Positions 10,937-58,368 of a DNA stretch of 64,000 nucleotides are shown here, piece by piece. The stretch is taken from positions 1 to 64,000 of the forward strand of contig PLYO01000042.1 in the NCBI GenBank assembly GCA_003151825.1, given 5' to 3'. A model generated the notes under the pieces. That model worked only from the letters and a program-made list of their open reading frames with translations. It made no database searches and had not been told where the DNA came from. The stretch is from Ignavibacteriota bacterium (GTDB lineage: Bacteria; Bacteroidota; Ignavibacteria; Palsa-1295). A program made the position numbers and the translations under genes. Numbering within the stretch: position 1 is the first letter of the stretch; every line of letters starts with the position of its first letter.

Positions 10937-11023
10937 CCCCCTCCTTTTCAAGGAGGGGGTTGGGGGGTGGTCAAATCCGCTCATAATAACCACCCCCTGC
11001 CCCCTCCTTGAAAAGGAGGGGGG
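10937..11023. repeat. Inverted pair of CCCCCTCCTT palindromic repeats in the 10879-11179 gap
   Basis: This 301-bp gap between divergent genes holds two head-to-head copies (10937-10972 and 10989-11023) of a GC-rich palindrome, CCCCTCCTTTTCAAGGAGGGG flavour, each with a CCACCCCC tail. Related copies occur at 21095, inside ftsZ (37882), twice inside the PBP gene (56757, 56840) and inside rsmH (58064). The rest of the gap (11040-11179) is AT-rich and presumably carries the promoter of the following gene. Confidence 0.85.
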
Positions 11024-12559: not shown

Positions 12560-13501
12560 TTAATCGAAGGCGGGTTTGAAGTTACCTATGACTACGTTCA
12601 GTGGACGCGCGATTATAATTCCCGTTTGATGGCTGCTGTGCGTCAGATATTCGTCCAACGATTCTTCGCTAATAATCACTTTCCCCATTAAACTGGATGC
12701 GTGCATAAAATGTATCCGGCCATCCTGCATACGGATTGCGATTCCTGTATGAGAGCAATCGAGGCCTTCAATGTTTGTCGTGATGCCAACAATGTCGCCG
12801 GTTTGGATTTTGAAATCAACGGCTGACACATCGTCTTTGAGGATGTAATCAAAACCTTTTCGTGCGAGAATTTTGCTTTCGACTGTTTGCATCGCGGAAA
12901 ACTCTGCATCATTGTTGGCAAGCTGCTTATAGAGTGAACGATGTGCCGTCATAAAATTGATCTCTCGGCTGTCATGATTCAAATATTTTCCCCCGACGGT
13001 ATAGGTGGCATCGCATAGGATTTCCTTATGGCAGGCATCGTATAAATAATCTATCGTGTAATTTAAGCGAGAGTGAAAGCCATCAATCTTTCCATCGCGG
13101 TAGCGTAAGTGCTTCAGTTCATCTCTTAAATTCTCCATGGTTGGATTTGTATATTTTTTGATGATCCGCGCAAACGCCACCATGTTCTCATAAAAGGTTA
13201 CACAATCGAAGCCGCGAAGATTTATTACTAACTCTTCTTTTGTCGCATCCTCGTCAAGCGTATGGGCCACATACGGCGTGCCCAGAAACAGCTTGCCCAT
13301 CGCGGCCACGCGCTCGCCGATGGGGAGCGTGTCTATTTTCTCCGCCTTTGCTTGCTTGATCTTTGCCGCAAAAATGGAATCGTCCGTGGGAAGTTGCGCA
13401 CGAACGGCAAACGACGAGAGGGACGAAATGGACAAAAATGCGATGAGCGCATATGGGAGAATGCGCTTTCCACTATCAACTTTCCACTTTTCACTATCCA
13501 C
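12560..13501 (-). CDS. Secreted DUF1460 (NlpC/P60-like) amidase
   Basis: This 313-residue protein of the DUF1460 family comprises cysteine-type N-acetylmuramyl-alanine amidase-like enzymes of the periplasm. The signature GFDCVTFYENMVAFARII carries the catalytic Cys, and LDCSHTGIAIRMQDGRIHFMHASS carries the His. The signal peptide is about residues 13-36 (ALIAFLSISSLSSFAVRAQ). The start is a GTG at 13501; residues 1-12 (MDSEKWKVDSGK) are encoded by a low-complexity repeat, and no better in-frame start exists before the hydrophobic segment. It lies 6 bp after yicC and 1 bp before gatC, so all three probably form one operon. Confidence 0.88.
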   Translation of the reverse strand: MDSEKWKVDSGKRILPYALIAFLSISSLSSFAVRAQLPTDDSIFAAKIKQAKAEKIDTLPIGERVAAMGKLFLGTPYVAHTLDEDATKEELVINLRGFDCVTFYENMVAFARIIKKYTNPTMENLRDELKHLRYRDGKIDGFHSRLNYTIDYLYDACHKEILCDATYTVGGKYLNHDSREINFMTAHRSLYKQLANNDAEFSAMQTVESKILARKGFDYILKDDVSAVDFKIQTGDIVGITTNIEGLDCSHTGIAIRMQDGRIHFMHASSLMGKVIISEESLDEYLTHSSHQTGIIIARPLNVVIGNFKPAFD

Positions 13502-13507
13502 TATCTG

Positions 13508-14410
13508 TTATTCGATATTCTGCACCTGCTCCCGCATTTTTTCGAGTTCTTCCTTGATGGAGACGACGTGGTGCGCGACATCCGCCGAATTCGTTTTCGA
13601 TCCCATCGTATTGACCTCGCGGTTCATTTCCTGCAAGATAAAATTCAGTTTTCGGCCCGCTGCGTCCGGGCCGTCCATCGCTTCGAGAAAAAATTTGACA
13701 TGCGAGCGGAAGCGGACAAGTTCCTCCGTGATGTCCAAGTGTTCCGCGATCATGGCGATCTCGAGTTCGAGCCGCTGTTCGGCAAGAACTTGCGTATCCT
13801 TCGTAAGCTCCAGAATTCGTTCTTTCAGCTTTTCATACTCTTCCTGTGCCGCAAGCGCGGCCATACGTTCGATGTCGTTCGTTCTGGCTTCCATGGTGGC
13901 GAGCCGGGCGCGGATGTCGCGCTCGAGTTCGCCACCCTCGGAGCGGCGCATGGCATTCAGCTGCTCGATAGCGTCGTCAATCGCCGCTTGAACGAGTTCC
14001 CATTCAAGCGCGGCGGCTTCCGACCCGCGCTCTTCGGCGGTAAAAATATCGCCGAAGGCCGTGAGATCGCGGAGTTGAATCTCGGCGGTAAGCCCCGTCG
14101 CCGTCCGAAGCTGATCGAGCAATTTGAAATACGCCTTTGCGACCGGCTCATTCACATGCAGCGGAATGTCCTCAGTGCCCTGACGATCGATCGAGACATT
14201 AAGCGAGATTTTCCCGCGTTCGAGCCGCTTGCGGATGAGTTCGCGGCATTCCAGCTCGCGCTCCGAAAGCGTGCGCGGCAGCCGGACGGCGATTTCGATG
14301 AAGCGCGAGTTCACGCTGCGCGCTTCCACGCTCACCGCGATCGTTGCGCCCGTGTTCCCGATGGCGCCTGTGCGCTCGCCGCGGCCAAAGCCGGTCATGG
14401 AAATTAGCAT
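13508..14410 (-). CDS. yicC: YicC/YloC family endoribonuclease
   Basis: The YicC family acts on RNA. The start at 14410 gives the characteristic N-terminus MLISMTGFGRGE; the longer ORF to 14434 adds eight residues with no homology. The conserved N-terminal domain (EARSVNSRFIEIAVRLPRTLSERELECRELI) and C-terminal DUF1732 part (LEIAMIAEHLDITEELVRFRSHVKFF, then GRKLNFILQEMNREVNTMGSKTNS) are both present. The length of about 300 residues is normal. It is the first gene of the yicC-DUF1460-gatC unit. Confidence 0.95.
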   Translation of the reverse strand: MLISMTGFGRGERTGAIGNTGATIAVSVEARSVNSRFIEIAVRLPRTLSERELECRELIRKRLERGKISLNVSIDRQGTEDIPLHVNEPVAKAYFKLLDQLRTATGLTAEIQLRDLTAFGDIFTAEERGSEAAALEWELVQAAIDDAIEQLNAMRRSEGGELERDIRARLATMEARTNDIERMAALAAQEEYEKLKERILELTKDTQVLAEQRLELEIAMIAEHLDITEELVRFRSHVKFFLEAMDGPDAAGRKLNFILQEMNREVNTMGSKTNSADVAHHVVSIKEELEKMREQVQNIE

Positions 14411-14457: not shown

Positions 14458-14525
14458 GTAGCCGTGACCTTTAGGTCACGGTCGCGAAGGGTCATATTAC
14501 ACCGTGACCTGAAGGTCACGGCTAC
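14458..14525. repeat. REP pair (BIME), GTAG/CCGTGACC family
   Basis: Two head-to-head REP units (14458-14485 and 14501-14525). Each has a GTAG head, then stem CCGTGACC/GGTCACGG with a 4-nt loop. They lie between ribD and yicC on the minus strand. A further half copy of GGTCACGG follows at 14527. They match the palindromes around the RAYT gene at 19.1 kb. Confidence 0.9.
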
Positions 14526-14529
14526 AAGG

Positions 14530-15654
14530 TCACGGCCGCTTCACTTGGGTGAGCCGAATCACTACGTCATCCAAACCCTCTAGGCGCTCCATGCTCTTGA
14601 GCGAGAGCCTCCGAGCATTTGTGATTGCAGTGAGTTCAAGCGGCCCAACCGAAGGCCGCGCATCCGCGCCAAAAATCATGGGGCCGTAAAAAAGCACAAG
14701 CTCGTCGAAAAGACCCTCCTCGATAATGCTCGCCGCAAGCGTGGGGCCGGCCTCGACGAGAATGCTTACGATGTTCCTCTGGCCAAATTGGCGAAGCATT
14801 TGCACAAGATCGATTCTTTCCCCGCTCCCTTCTATCACCATGATCTCAATTCCCTGTGCCGAGAAAAGATTGCGTTTCGATTCCGGCGCAGCGGGAGTAG
14901 TGATGAGAATCGTCTGCGCTCGGTGCGCATCGGTGAAAAGCTTGAGCCTGGATGGAAGATCGAGCCGCGCATCGAGCACGATTCTTCGCGGCTGGCGGCC
15001 ACTTGCAAGCCGCACCGTAAGTTCGGGATCGTCTAAGAGCGCGGTCCGCGCGCCGATCAGCACAGCATCGTGCTCGGCGCGCATGGCATGAACGACACTG
15101 CGCGAAGCCTCGGAGGTAATCCATTTCGATTTGCCACTCAAAAGCGCGCTCTTGCCATCGAGCGTCATTGCGAGCTTCAGCGTAACGTAGGGAAGGCCCG
15201 TCGTGACGTGCTTGATGAAAAATCTATTTAATTCCCGCGCTTCGGCTTCGAGCAATCCGGCTTCCACTTGGATTCCTGCGTCTCGTAATTCGCGGATGCC
15301 TTTGCCATTCACATTCGGATTCGGGTCTTCCATAGCGATGACACATCTCGCAATTCTTTTCTCGATAAGAAGCTTCGTGCAGGGCGCGGTTTTACCCTCG
15401 TGGCAATGCGGTTCGAGCGTAACATACACGGTCGCGCCACGCACGCTGTGGCCGTTCGATTCCGCGTCACGAATGGCATTCGGTTCCGCGTGCGCGCCGC
15501 CAAAGGCAAGGTGCGCGCCTTCGCCCAGGATTTCGCCATTCGCGTTAGTTATAACGCAGCCCACCATCGGGTTCGGGCTGACTTGGCCCATGCCCAATCG
15601 CGCCAACGCCAGCGCGCGCTGCATCATGCTTCGATCGAATTCGGTGAAAGGCAT
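14530..15654 (-). CDS. ribD: Bifunctional riboflavin biosynthesis deaminase/reductase RibD
   Basis: RibD deaminates the pyrimidine intermediate and then reduces its ribosyl side chain in riboflavin synthesis. The 374 residues comprise an N-terminal deaminase (about 1-150, GGAHAEPNAI with the zinc His and catalytic Glu) and a C-terminal reductase (about 155-374, LKLAMTLDGKSAL, DAVLIGARTALLDDPELTVRL, VEAGPTLAASIIEEGLFDEL). The second zinc segment reads EPHCHEGKTAPC rather than the usual EPCSHxGxTPPC, so one ligand position is His with a Cys moved by one. REP pairs flank the gene on both sides. Confidence 0.95.
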   Translation of the reverse strand: MPFTEFDRSMMQRALALARLGMGQVSPNPMVGCVITNANGEILGEGAHLAFGGAHAEPNAIRDAESNGHSVRGATVYVTLEPHCHEGKTAPCTKLLIEKRIARCVIAMEDPNPNVNGKGIRELRDAGIQVEAGLLEAEARELNRFFIKHVTTGLPYVTLKLAMTLDGKSALLSGKSKWITSEASRSVVHAMRAEHDAVLIGARTALLDDPELTVRLASGRQPRRIVLDARLDLPSRLKLFTDAHRAQTILITTPAAPESKRNLFSAQGIEIMVIEGSGERIDLVQMLRQFGQRNIVSILVEAGPTLAASIIEEGLFDELVLFYGPMIFGADARPSVGPLELTAITNARRLSLKSMERLEGLDDVVIRLTQVKRP

Positions 15655-15693: not shown

Positions 15694-15776
15694 GTAGTCG
15701 TGACCTTCAGGTCACGGTCGCGGAGCGGGGTCATGCACACCGTGACCTGAAGGTCACGGCTACAGGTCACGGCTAC
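15694..15776. repeat. REP pair upstream of ribD
   Basis: GTAG-headed REP (15694-15727, extended by GCGGAGCG) and an inverted copy (15739-15763), followed by a partial third repeat to 15776. They belong to the same family as those at 14458, 18988 and 19646. Confidence 0.88.
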
Positions 15777-18987: not shown

Positions 18988-19123
18988 GTAGCCGTGACCT
19001 TCAGGTCACGGTCGCGGAGCGCTGGTCGCCATGCATTTATACGACCCTCTCCTGGTTTCGCCGTGACCGGAAGGTCACGGTTTATAATTCGCTCCGCGAC
19101 CGTGACCTGAAGGTCACGGCTAC
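18988..19123. repeat. Triplet of REP palindromes in the 18794-19146 gap
   Basis: Three palindromes (18988-19010, 19060-19080, 19099-19123) of the CCGTGACC/GGTCACGG family, the outer two with GTAG heads pointing inward and GCGGAGCG extensions. They lie just downstream of the RAYT gene. The remainder of the gap (18794-18985) is AT-rich and should contain the promoter of the 981-residue protein; no clear motif was identified. Confidence 0.9.
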
Positions 19124-19146
19124 GGGTCATAGCATCAAATTCGCGG

Positions 19147-19629
19147 TTACAAAATCCCACCGGCCCACGTTTTGAGATCGAACACGGTCGATCCCTTAAA
19201 CGGATAATCCTCCCATCGCTCGCAAATACCTGCTCGCACGGGATTATTCAGAATATACGTGATCAGTTTGGAGAGGTCTTCTTCCTGCCTCAGGATATGA
19301 TCATAAAAATCCTCCTGCCAATGTACCTCACGCTGATTCTTTCCAAACCAAAATCCGGAGTACTGTTTGAACGCTCGCATTGCCGCATACACGTCGGAAT
19401 CGTCGCCGAGTCCGGTAATGATTACGTGAAGATGATCGGGCATGAACAGATATACTTCCGACGCGCAGCGATGTTGCGACAACGCTCGGAGTAAATGCGC
19501 TTCATGAATCTTGAACGCCTGCTCCGTCAGAAAATAATCATGGCGGTTTTCCATGCAGGCGGTGAACGAGGCTCGAACAAATCCTCGATACGCTTCGCGT
19601 GGGAGACGGTGCTTCTTTTCCTTAATCAT
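19147..19629 (-). CDS. REP-associated tyrosine transposase (RAYT, Y1/TnpA-REP family)
   Basis: A single-strand DNA nuclease of the HUH/Y1 superfamily that acts on REP sequences. The HUH-like motif is in YLFMPDHLHVIITG and the likely catalytic Tyr is in KLITYILNNPVRAGI, followed by W(E)DYPFKGST, all typical of RAYTs. The start at the ATG 19629 (MIKEKKHRLPRE) gives 160 residues. The longer ORF to 19737 reads through REP sequence (VTATMAFAER), so the short form is preferred. Fragments of REPs sit on both sides. Intact motifs suggest that it may be active. Confidence 0.9.
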   Translation of the reverse strand: MIKEKKHRLPREAYRGFVRASFTACMENRHDYFLTEQAFKIHEAHLLRALSQHRCASEVYLFMPDHLHVIITGLGDDSDVYAAMRAFKQYSGFWFGKNQREVHWQEDFYDHILRQEEDLSKLITYILNNPVRAGICERWEDYPFKGSTVFDLKTWAGGIL

Positions 19630-19645
19630 GATTGCGGTAACAGCA

Positions 19646-19744
19646 CACCGTAACCTAAAGGTTACGGCTACAAAGTTCGCCGCACATCGCTCGCACTGTT
19701 TTCGCTCCGCGAACGCCATCGTAGCCGTGACCTTCATGTCACAG
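19646..19744. repeat. Diverged REP pair upstream of the RAYT gene
   Basis: An inverted pair: 19646-19671 (stem CCGTAACC/GGTTACGG with a GTAG head on the minus strand) and 19721-19744 (GTAG then CCGTGACCttcatGTCACAG). The first copy carries compensatory changes that keep the stem, indicating selection or pairing-based maintenance. Confidence 0.8.
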
Positions 19745-21061: not shown

Positions 21062-21094
21062 CAAACACCCATTTCCGGGGTTCCGTCCGCCGGC

Positions 21095-21130
21095 AACCAC
21101 CCCCTGCACCCGCCTTGGAAAGGCGGGGGT
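21095..21130. repeat. Single CCACCCCC/CGCCTTGG palindromic repeat
   Basis: A copy of the CCCCCTCCTT-type palindrome family, with the stem ACCCGCCTT/AAGGCGGGGGT and the usual CCACCCCC tail, lies in the divergent region between the TraB-like gene and secG. If the longer TraB ORF were used it would be translated as ARTPAFPRRVQGVVAGG. Confidence 0.75.
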
Positions 21131-21195
21131 TCTCGCGATGCGGAATTCTTTCGGGCGGACGTTGTTCATAAGCCACTCAAACCCAAAGGAAATAC

Positions 21196-57411: not shown

Positions 57412-58368
57412 CTACACTTTTTCTGCGGCGCGGAGCTTTGCGCTTCGCGCCCGTGGATTTCGTTCGATTTCTTCGGCGCTTGGCGTGACGGCTTTTTTTG
57501 TCAGCACTTTCAGCCGCGCGCTGGAGAGATCGATTCTCTCTTTTAATGCCCCCAGAGAGCCGGCCGCAAATTCCGGCCTGCTCTCGTTCTTAAAAAAATC
57601 TTTTACAATCCGGTCTTCCAGCGAGTGATACGCCACGACGACGATTCTTCCTCCAGGCCGCAGAATCCCGACCGCTTGCGCAAGCGACGATCGCAGGTTT
57701 CCAAGCTCATCGTTCACCTCGATGCGCAGAGCCTGAAAGATGCGCGAGAGGGTTTCATTCTTTTTGTCCTCACGAATCCCTTGTGTGACAATCGCAGCCA
57801 ATTCTGCGGTTGTTTCGATGGCTCCTGCCATTCGTGCCTGAACGATCTTTCTCGCGATCGGTCCGGCATAAGGCTCTTCGCCATAGTTGCGAAAAATTTC
57901 CTTGAGCTTCGTTTCGTCATAGTTCGATATTATCTCTTTCGCTGATGTTTTTAGTCGTGGATCCAACCGCATATCGAGCGGCGCATCCACACGATAGCTA
58001 AGGCCCACCGAAGCAGTATCCAATTGATGGCTGCTCACGCCGAGATCATAGACGATGCCGTCTAACCACCCCCCAGCCCCCTCCTTCTTAAGGAGGGGAT
58101 GATCGCGCATTGCATCGTACAATTTTGCAAAATTCTCTTTGACGAGCACAAATTGCTCGCCGAATTTTGCAAGGCGCGCCGAAGCAACGTGCCACGCCGC
58201 AAGATCGGTATCGAATCCGAAGACATGCGCACCAGCGGCGAGCATCGTCTCGGCGTATCCTCCGCCGCCCAGCGTGGCATCGACATACACGCCGCCCGCG
58301 CGCGCCGCAAGAAGCTCCATCGCCTCATGCAGCAGAACCGGCCGGTGATATTCATTCTCCGTTTTCAA
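57412..58368 (-). CDS. rsmH: 16S rRNA m4C1402 methyltransferase RsmH
   Basis: RsmH (MraW) methylates N4 of C1402 in 16S rRNA. The 318 residues have the SAM motif VYVDATLGGGGYAETML, VYDLGVSSHQLDTASVGLSYR, GPLDMRL and C-terminal GGRIVVVAYHSLEDRIVKDFF. A palindromic repeat (58064-58099) is translated just before IVYDLGVSS as PLLKKEGAGGWL, inserted into a surface loop. The start is a TTG at 58368, as no ATG precedes the first strand. Confidence 0.95.
   Translation of the reverse strand: MKTENEYHRPVLLHEAMELLAARAGGVYVDATLGGGGYAETMLAAGAHVFGFDTDLAAWHVASARLAKFGEQFVLVKENFAKLYDAMRDHPLLKKEGAGGWLDGIVYDLGVSSHQLDTASVGLSYRVDAPLDMRLDPRLKTSAKEIISNYDETKLKEIFRNYGEEPYAGPIARKIVQARMAGAIETTAELAAIVTQGIREDKKNETLSRIFQALRIEVNDELGNLRSSLAQAVGILRPGGRIVVVAYHSLEDRIVKDFFKNESRPEFAAGSLGALKERIDLSSARLKVLTKKAVTPSAEEIERNPRARSAKLRAAEKV
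58064..58099. repeat. Palindromic repeat translated inside rsmH
   Basis: A CCACCCCCCAGCCCCCTCC head with CCTTCTTAAGGAGGGG stem, the same family as at 10937. It sits in the loop before the DLGVSS motif and does not break the frame. Confidence 0.88.

Follow-up and report, generated by a model that had tools for sequence, protein, structure and literature searches.

The 64,000-nucleotide stretch of DNA analysed here (the window), which is part of contig C33 in a genome of 3.59 Mb, carries one copy of a gene for a RAYT (REP-associated tyrosine transposase), surrounded by the REPs that its product would recognise, with a population of REPINs (pairs of inverted REPs with GTAG facing outward and a short spacer) that it would disperse, or would once have dispersed, in trans. 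Such an arrangement constitutes a REPtron, and the probability of this reading is put at about 0.9. Binding, cleavage and movement of the REPs by the RAYT are inferred, and the system may still be active. The earlier note, made from the DNA letters of the window, had proposed a RAYT with its own REP family, and this proposal holds on account of sequence and fold likeness to the E. coli TnpA_REP structure 4er8, the protein motifs and the genome-wide GTAG doublets.

The RAYT gene and its product

The gene, its flanking hairpins and the two doublets near ribD are arranged in the window as follows.

14458 to 14525, unstranded: REPIN in the space separating yicC and ribD, with REPs at 14458 and 14502
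15694 to 15763, unstranded: REPIN upstream of ribD, with REPs at 15694 and 15740
18988 to 19011, plus strand: REP copy with the exact consensus GTAGCCGTGACC(TTCA)GGTCACGG, forming the outer end of the doublet downstream of the RAYT gene
19061 to 19080, minus strand: headless hairpin of the family, with no GTAG and with a loop reading TTCC on the minus strand
19100 to 19123, minus strand: REP copy with the exact consensus
19150 to 19629, minus strand: RAYT (TnpA_REP) gene encoding a Y1 transposase of 160 amino acids, start at about 19629, last codon at 19150
19648 to 19671, minus strand: REP copy carrying GTAACC/GGTTAC as a paired change and lying 18 nt upstream of the RAYT start codon
19721 to 19744, plus strand: degenerate REP copy with 6 of 8 stem pairs and a folded energy of -2.9 kcal/mol

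A longer reading frame extends up to 19737 and passes through the upstream REPs, and homologues start at about 19629. The match of the protein to the Pfam Y1_Tnp family lies barely above the cut-off (23.5 bits against 23), and a profile built from 11 homologues matches E. coli TnpA_REP (4er8) at 7.6e-13. The predicted model, with a mean pLDDT of 92.6, has 4er8 as its best fold match (E 3.6e-9, TM 0.76, 24% identity in the fold alignment), followed by IS200/IS605 transposases, the HuH/Y1 fold being shared with IS608 and ISDra2. The HuH motif reads PDHLH, the tyrosine motif YILNNP, and a W-Q-x4-D-H-x2-R segment is present, in which WQEDFYDHILR places W, Q, D, H and R with the spacing of E. coli TnpA_REP, where W94, Q95, E/D100, H101 and R104 read the GTAG foot, as described in passages of PMC6006769. 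H66 and H68 are invariant and Y125 is found in 10 of 11 sequences of the first alignment, while in a set of 81 proteins (80 relatives and the RAYT of the window) the HuH motif occurs in 80, Y-x3-NP in 78 and WQ-x4-[DE]H-x2-R in 69.

The protein combines the HuH motif with the Y-x3-NP tyrosine motif and the identically spaced GTAG-reading residues by which RAYT/TnpA_REP proteins (TnpA_Y1 class 2) are recognised; hairpins with a GT[AG]G foot flank its gene and recur elsewhere in the genome, and the low transposase copy number expected of such proteins is seen in a single RAYT copy, the remaining matches in the same genome being only 27-33% identical. Its assignment to TnpA_REP/RAYT is supported by the Pfam match, the 4er8 profile match, the predicted fold and the motifs. 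The nearest named relative is found in Bacteroidetes bacterium Centralia_MAG_334. Relatives in viral contigs and phage records were sought and none was found, and plasmid relatives are distant (below 32% identity among the 10 of 18 matches listed).

Hairpins in the window

Arms of the type CCGTGACC/GGTCACGG, or variants of them, form five hairpins round the RAYT gene and two inverted pairs flanking ribD. Searching the window for the core CCGTGACC-N-GGTCACGG gives 6 occurrences as compared to 0 in 100 shuffles, and 9 when up to 2 mismatches are allowed (shuffled mean 0.94, maximum 4). The pairs previously reported beside ribD (14458/14502 and 15694/15740) lie, as claimed, on either side of this gene. 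Five hairpins do bracket the transposase gene, of which only four are GTAG-headed as had been stated for all five: the one at 19061-19080 is flanked by TTCG and TAAA and its loop reads GGAA, and the GTAG-headed copy at 19721 is degenerate. The exact copies at 18988 and 19100, together with their flanks, form a perfect 35-nt inverted repeat (18987-19021/19090-19124). The copy at 19648, in which a compensatory change (GTAACC/GGTTAC) had been noted, indeed keeps all 8 of its stem pairs; since this variant is also found around the RAYT in the sister species G004 (L131), it may have been inherited as a RAYT-side variant and need not be a fresh change in this copy.

Additional half copies are present near ribD. 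A half REP at 14526-14537, after the yicC/ribD REPIN, supplies the ribD stop codon, another one (15764-15776) comes after the REPIN upstream of ribD, and similar half copies trail doublets in the genome stretches L239 and L247. The window also contains a second, unrelated family of hairpins (CCTCCTT or CCGCCTT/AAGGAGG or AAGGCGG, with a 3-base loop) at 10940-10956, 11003-11019, 21110-21126 and 58080-58096, with 5 matches at up to 2 mismatches against 0.3 by chance, one of which (39895) is doubtful. Copies of 25-41 bases with 87-100% identity to 21092-21134 are found in the congeners G001, G002, G003, G005 and G006. A short stretch at 13457-13513, rich in TTTCCACT/CACTATC units, likewise recurs in other genomes of the genus.

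The REP and REPIN family across the genome

Genome-wide mapping, which the earlier note had suggested, revealed, in 3.59 Mb, 73 copies that differ from the 24-base consensus at no more than 3 positions, as against 0 for the reversed-pattern control; 28 of the copies match the consensus exactly, and hairpins with unaltered arms round a short loop number 51 (reversed control 0). Hence the family is present among the neighbouring genes, across which it had been said to spread, without being confined to them, the 73 copies being distributed over many contigs.

A survey by a looser rule of 37 fetched genome stretches and two pieces of the window gave 79 hairpins, with a TTCA or TTTA loop in 75 and a GTAG head in 72. 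Neighbours within 150 bp form 34 GTAG-outward mirror-image doublets, 2 tandem pairs and one tail-to-tail pair, the latter consisting of the two copies upstream of the RAYT gene, and 7 hairpins lack a partner of the same family, at least one of which (in metG) has a diverged partner. Among 632 stem cells, 14 carry double-sided changes that keep pairing, 12 are G-T and 10 are unpaired. Conservation stops sharply two bases before GTAG; position -2 is T in 46 of the 79 hairpins, and position -1 a pyrimidine in 73. Inverted doublets are over-represented, as is characteristic of REPINs, and so is folding into one hairpin, for which computed DNA folding of three doublets gave z values of -8.6 to -13.5. 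A fixed CT or CA dinucleotide near the REPs, the cleavage site of other RAYTs, was searched for, and none stands out at a constant position.

Two recurrent tails follow the stem, TCGCGRAG and a TGTG-like one. In 18 of the 34 doublets one tail of each kind is combined (shuffled p 0.0004, nominal since the tail classes were defined after inspection of the sequences; for this count the doublet 18988/19061 was replaced beforehand by 18988/19100), and an excess of mixed tails would follow from movement of the doublet as a whole. Two TCGCGRAG tails are combined only once, in the doublet downstream of the RAYT gene.

Occupied and empty sites

The comparison of occupied and empty sites, also called for in the earlier note, covered three occupied sites, two of them within genes, and found all three empty in every relative compared, the comparison being one between species. 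The yicC/ribD doublet is absent from 7 of 7 relatives with identical gene order, the spacer being too diverged to define a precise empty site. Stretches upstream of ribD from 7 relatives, which may miss part of the homologous spacer, contain no copy even when 6 mismatches are allowed. Within the methionyl-tRNA synthetase gene (L216:1546-1620), a REPIN that keeps the reading frame forms the linker ahead of the C-terminal tRNA-binding domain and is absent from 8 of 8 relatives. Another, likewise in frame, occupies a variable loop encoded by a TMEM260-like O-mannosyltransferase gene (L237:1500-1576) and is missing in 7 of 7 relatives with a full-length match, G006 having no full-length match. The neighbours of the RAYT gene in G004 differ from those in the window, so that the gene or its surroundings have moved.

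REP number and RAYT presence in relatives

Copies of the consensus with up to 3 mismatches were found in 9 of the 149 genomes scanned. The outcome named beforehand as counting against the proposal, REPs equally common in relatives without the RAYT, is not what the genus exhibits: the two members with a close RAYT contain 73 copies (the genome under study, RAYT identity 100%) and 41 copies (G004, 65%), as compared to 3, 1, 7, 1 and 12 in G001, G002, G003, G005 and G006, whose best RAYT matches are distant (E 1e-10 to 1e-16). The exact rank p for this difference is 0.048, and the assembly with 12 copies (G006) is 92% complete in 350 contigs. In six other members of the taxonomic family (G007-G012), no copies were found at up to 3 mismatches.

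With a wider pattern (GTAG-n-CG-n4-CTTYA-(n)-G-n4-CG) and a close RAYT defined by E below 1e-30, at least 6 copies are present in 10 of 11 genomes with a close RAYT and in 11 of 138 others (Fisher p 3e-9), and at least 3 copies in 10 of 11 and 13 of 138 (p 1e-8); these class-level tests disregard phylogeny, and the 6-copy threshold was picked after the counts were seen. These counts support a dependence of REP number on RAYT presence at the level of both genus and class. By contrast, G034, whose RAYT is 43% identical, contains zero REP copies. The link is not absolute, since G135 (99% complete) has 378 REPs by the wider pattern, 31 by the narrow consensus, and a search for a close RAYT in it found none. 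The guide residues are missing from its lone Y1 match, whose locus contains no tagged hairpin, and the REPs of G135 (e.g., L273, L275 and L277) are mixed doublets of the GTAGCCGCGACC and GTAGCCGCAGCC types. This case could be due to a RAYT locus, rich in repeats, that fell into an assembly gap.

RAYTs beyond the genus

A scan of species genomes yielded 117 relatives of the RAYT, of which the best 80, from about 20 phyla, were kept. At least one strict GTAG hairpin lies within about 600 bases of the gene in 73 of these best 80, as against 8 of 400 shuffled sets, and 58 have such hairpins on both sides. Among the flanking-hairpin loops of these best 80, 239 of 251 are TTYA or TTYA plus one base, and the common arm is CGCARSC, with respect to which CGTGACC of the window is unusual at two positions. 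Outward-facing REPs enclose the gene in 48 of the best 80, and where the nearest REP faces outward the median gene-REP distances are 26.5 and 28 bases. No strict GTAG hairpin was found in the loci of two of the 11 closest homologues (L063 and L064). Two adjoining RAYT-like Y1 genes of the genome under study (L016 and L017, G000:C43:50886-53003) carry separate GTAG hairpin classes, of the CCGGTGAC and CCCGGCGT types, in agreement with one REP class per RAYT; the CCGGTGAC type recurs as about 3 doublets elsewhere and the CCCGGCGT type occurs only beside its gene.

The RAYT tree requires 34 changes of phylum label for 21 groups (minimum 20, shuffled mean 47.6) and contains several mixed groups, which would fit transfer between phyla on top of vertical descent, with mis-binned contigs and paralogues as further possible sources. 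The correlation between protein and REP-arm distances is weak (Mantel rho 0.18, 4 of 2000 permutations as high). It is conceivable, though quite unlikely, that one RAYT subfamily reads a near-fixed GTAG-n-CGCA[A/G][G/C]C-TT[T/C]A in about 20 phyla, having crossed between them, and that REPs in some genomes, chiefly the 378 of G135, have multiplied without their own RAYT or outlived it. If true, REP spread would be separable from the resident enzyme.

Proposed mechanism and alternative explanations

In the REPtron reading, the two REPs of a REPIN would fold on single-stranded DNA, for example on the lagging-strand template, and the single strand GTAGCCGTGACCTTCAGGTCACGG is a candidate substrate of the RAYT. 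The W-Q-x4-D-H-x2-R segment is predicted to read the GTAG foot, and the hairpin tip T-T-Y-A would be read as well. The tyrosine of YILNNP, together with the HuH site, would cut adjacent to the REP, and the RAYT may then move or copy the doublet to a new site. A base-specific reading of the TTYA tip is suggested by analogy, the Marinomonas loop data described below serving as support and not as proof. Against the REPtron reading stand the REPs of G135, G003 and G006, where close RAYTs were not found, the weak correlation of REP arm and protein, the lack of a constant CT or CA site and the two homologue loci (L063 and L064) without a strict hairpin.

Since the HuH/Y1 fold is common to the IS608 and ISDra2 transposases and hairpins flank the gene on both sides, the locus might be taken for an ordinary IS200/IS605 insertion sequence, with the hairpins as its subterminal ends or remnants. 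This is extremely improbable, given one gene copy with other matches in the genome at 27-33% identity, a tyrosine motif YILNNP and not the Y-x3-Q listed in the table of PMC6006769, and 73 hairpins most of which have no such gene alongside; membership in IS200/IS605 was rejected on copy number and tyrosine motif. The hairpins could also be RNA or DNA elements that serve the host (terminators, mRNA stabilisers or protein-binding sites) and are kept by selection, the RAYT being incidental or domesticated. Most of them do lie at gene ends, often between genes of the same direction, as judged by crude longest-ORF gene calls, and REPs persist in G135 and in congeners without the RAYT; this explanation is nevertheless very unlikely, as the compared sites are not conserved between species, two REPINs are inside protein-coding genes and REP numbers track the RAYT in genus and class.

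An old and immobile REP family with a relic RAYT, whose spread predates the species and was followed by losses in the relatives, is an unlikely explanation too. It would account for the degenerate copies, including that at 19721, and has against it the 28 exact-consensus copies, an intact RAYT reading frame with all its motifs, and sites that are empty in all relatives compared.

Relation to known systems and significance

The E. coli REPtron (TnpA_REP, PDB 4er8) resembles the REPtron described here in the HuH/Y1 fold, the W-Q-[DE]-H-R guide residues, Y-x3-NP, the GTAG foot and the inverted REPs round the gene, whereas the REPs of the window family are perfect 8-bp palindromes with a TTYA tip and no stem bulge. 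Perfect-palindrome REPs are shared with Group 3 REPtrons of Stenotrophomonas and Marinomonas, as described in the parts of PMC8266576 devoted to them. In Marinomonas REP_Mb, with a TTTA loop, T12, T13 and A15 are required and the third base is free, which matches the natural TTYA loop, but its stem of 5 bp stands 2 bases off GTAG, and the 8-bp stem of the present family is joined to it directly (PMC8266576). Going by the motif and length descriptions of TnpA_Y1 subclass 2.7 (Quentin et al. 2018, PMC6006769), YI[LR][NQ]NP, WQ, long canonical GT[AG]G REPs and an occurrence in scattered phyla are common to both, while the HuH motif is DHLH here and [ND]HVH there, and the length is 160 amino acids against a median of 213. 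As in the Pseudomonas fluorescens SBW25 REPINs covered in PMC3116915, the inverted doublet appears to be the mobile unit, with tens of doublets instead of hundreds and two tail types joined in many of them. The GTAG REP families of Di Nocera et al. 2013 (PMC3733652) have in common with it the GTAG tag, short TY-type loops, head-to-head dimers, intragenic REPs and REP-borne stop codons; those reported in the relevant passages are from Proteobacteria, Cyanobacteria, Chloroflexi and PVC, and the present family is from Bacteroidota.

GTAG REPs, REPINs, REPtrons, REPs within genes and REP-borne stop codons are already in print. The string GCAGGCTTTAGCCTGC was not found in the literature text searched, a weak negative because figures lay outside that search, and a search for RAYT/REPIN with Bacteroidetes, Ignavibacteria or phyla, for intragenic REPs and for domesticated RAYTs returned nothing relevant beyond the works cited and related REP papers. 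What is added here to this known kind of selfish or domesticated bacterial repeat system is a member from a Bacteroidota genus, the count of REPs with and without the RAYT, clean intragenic empty sites, the wide range of the TTYA subfamily and the orphan REPs of G135.

REPtrons have been studied mostly in Proteobacteria, and the present one belongs to a soil bacterium of an uncultured Bacteroidota lineage, whose congeners with or without the RAYT allow the link between the enzyme and REP number to be counted directly. In many phyla the tip is nearly fixed as TTYA, in agreement with the loop bases that proved essential in one laboratory system; this suggests that a rule of recognition is held in common.
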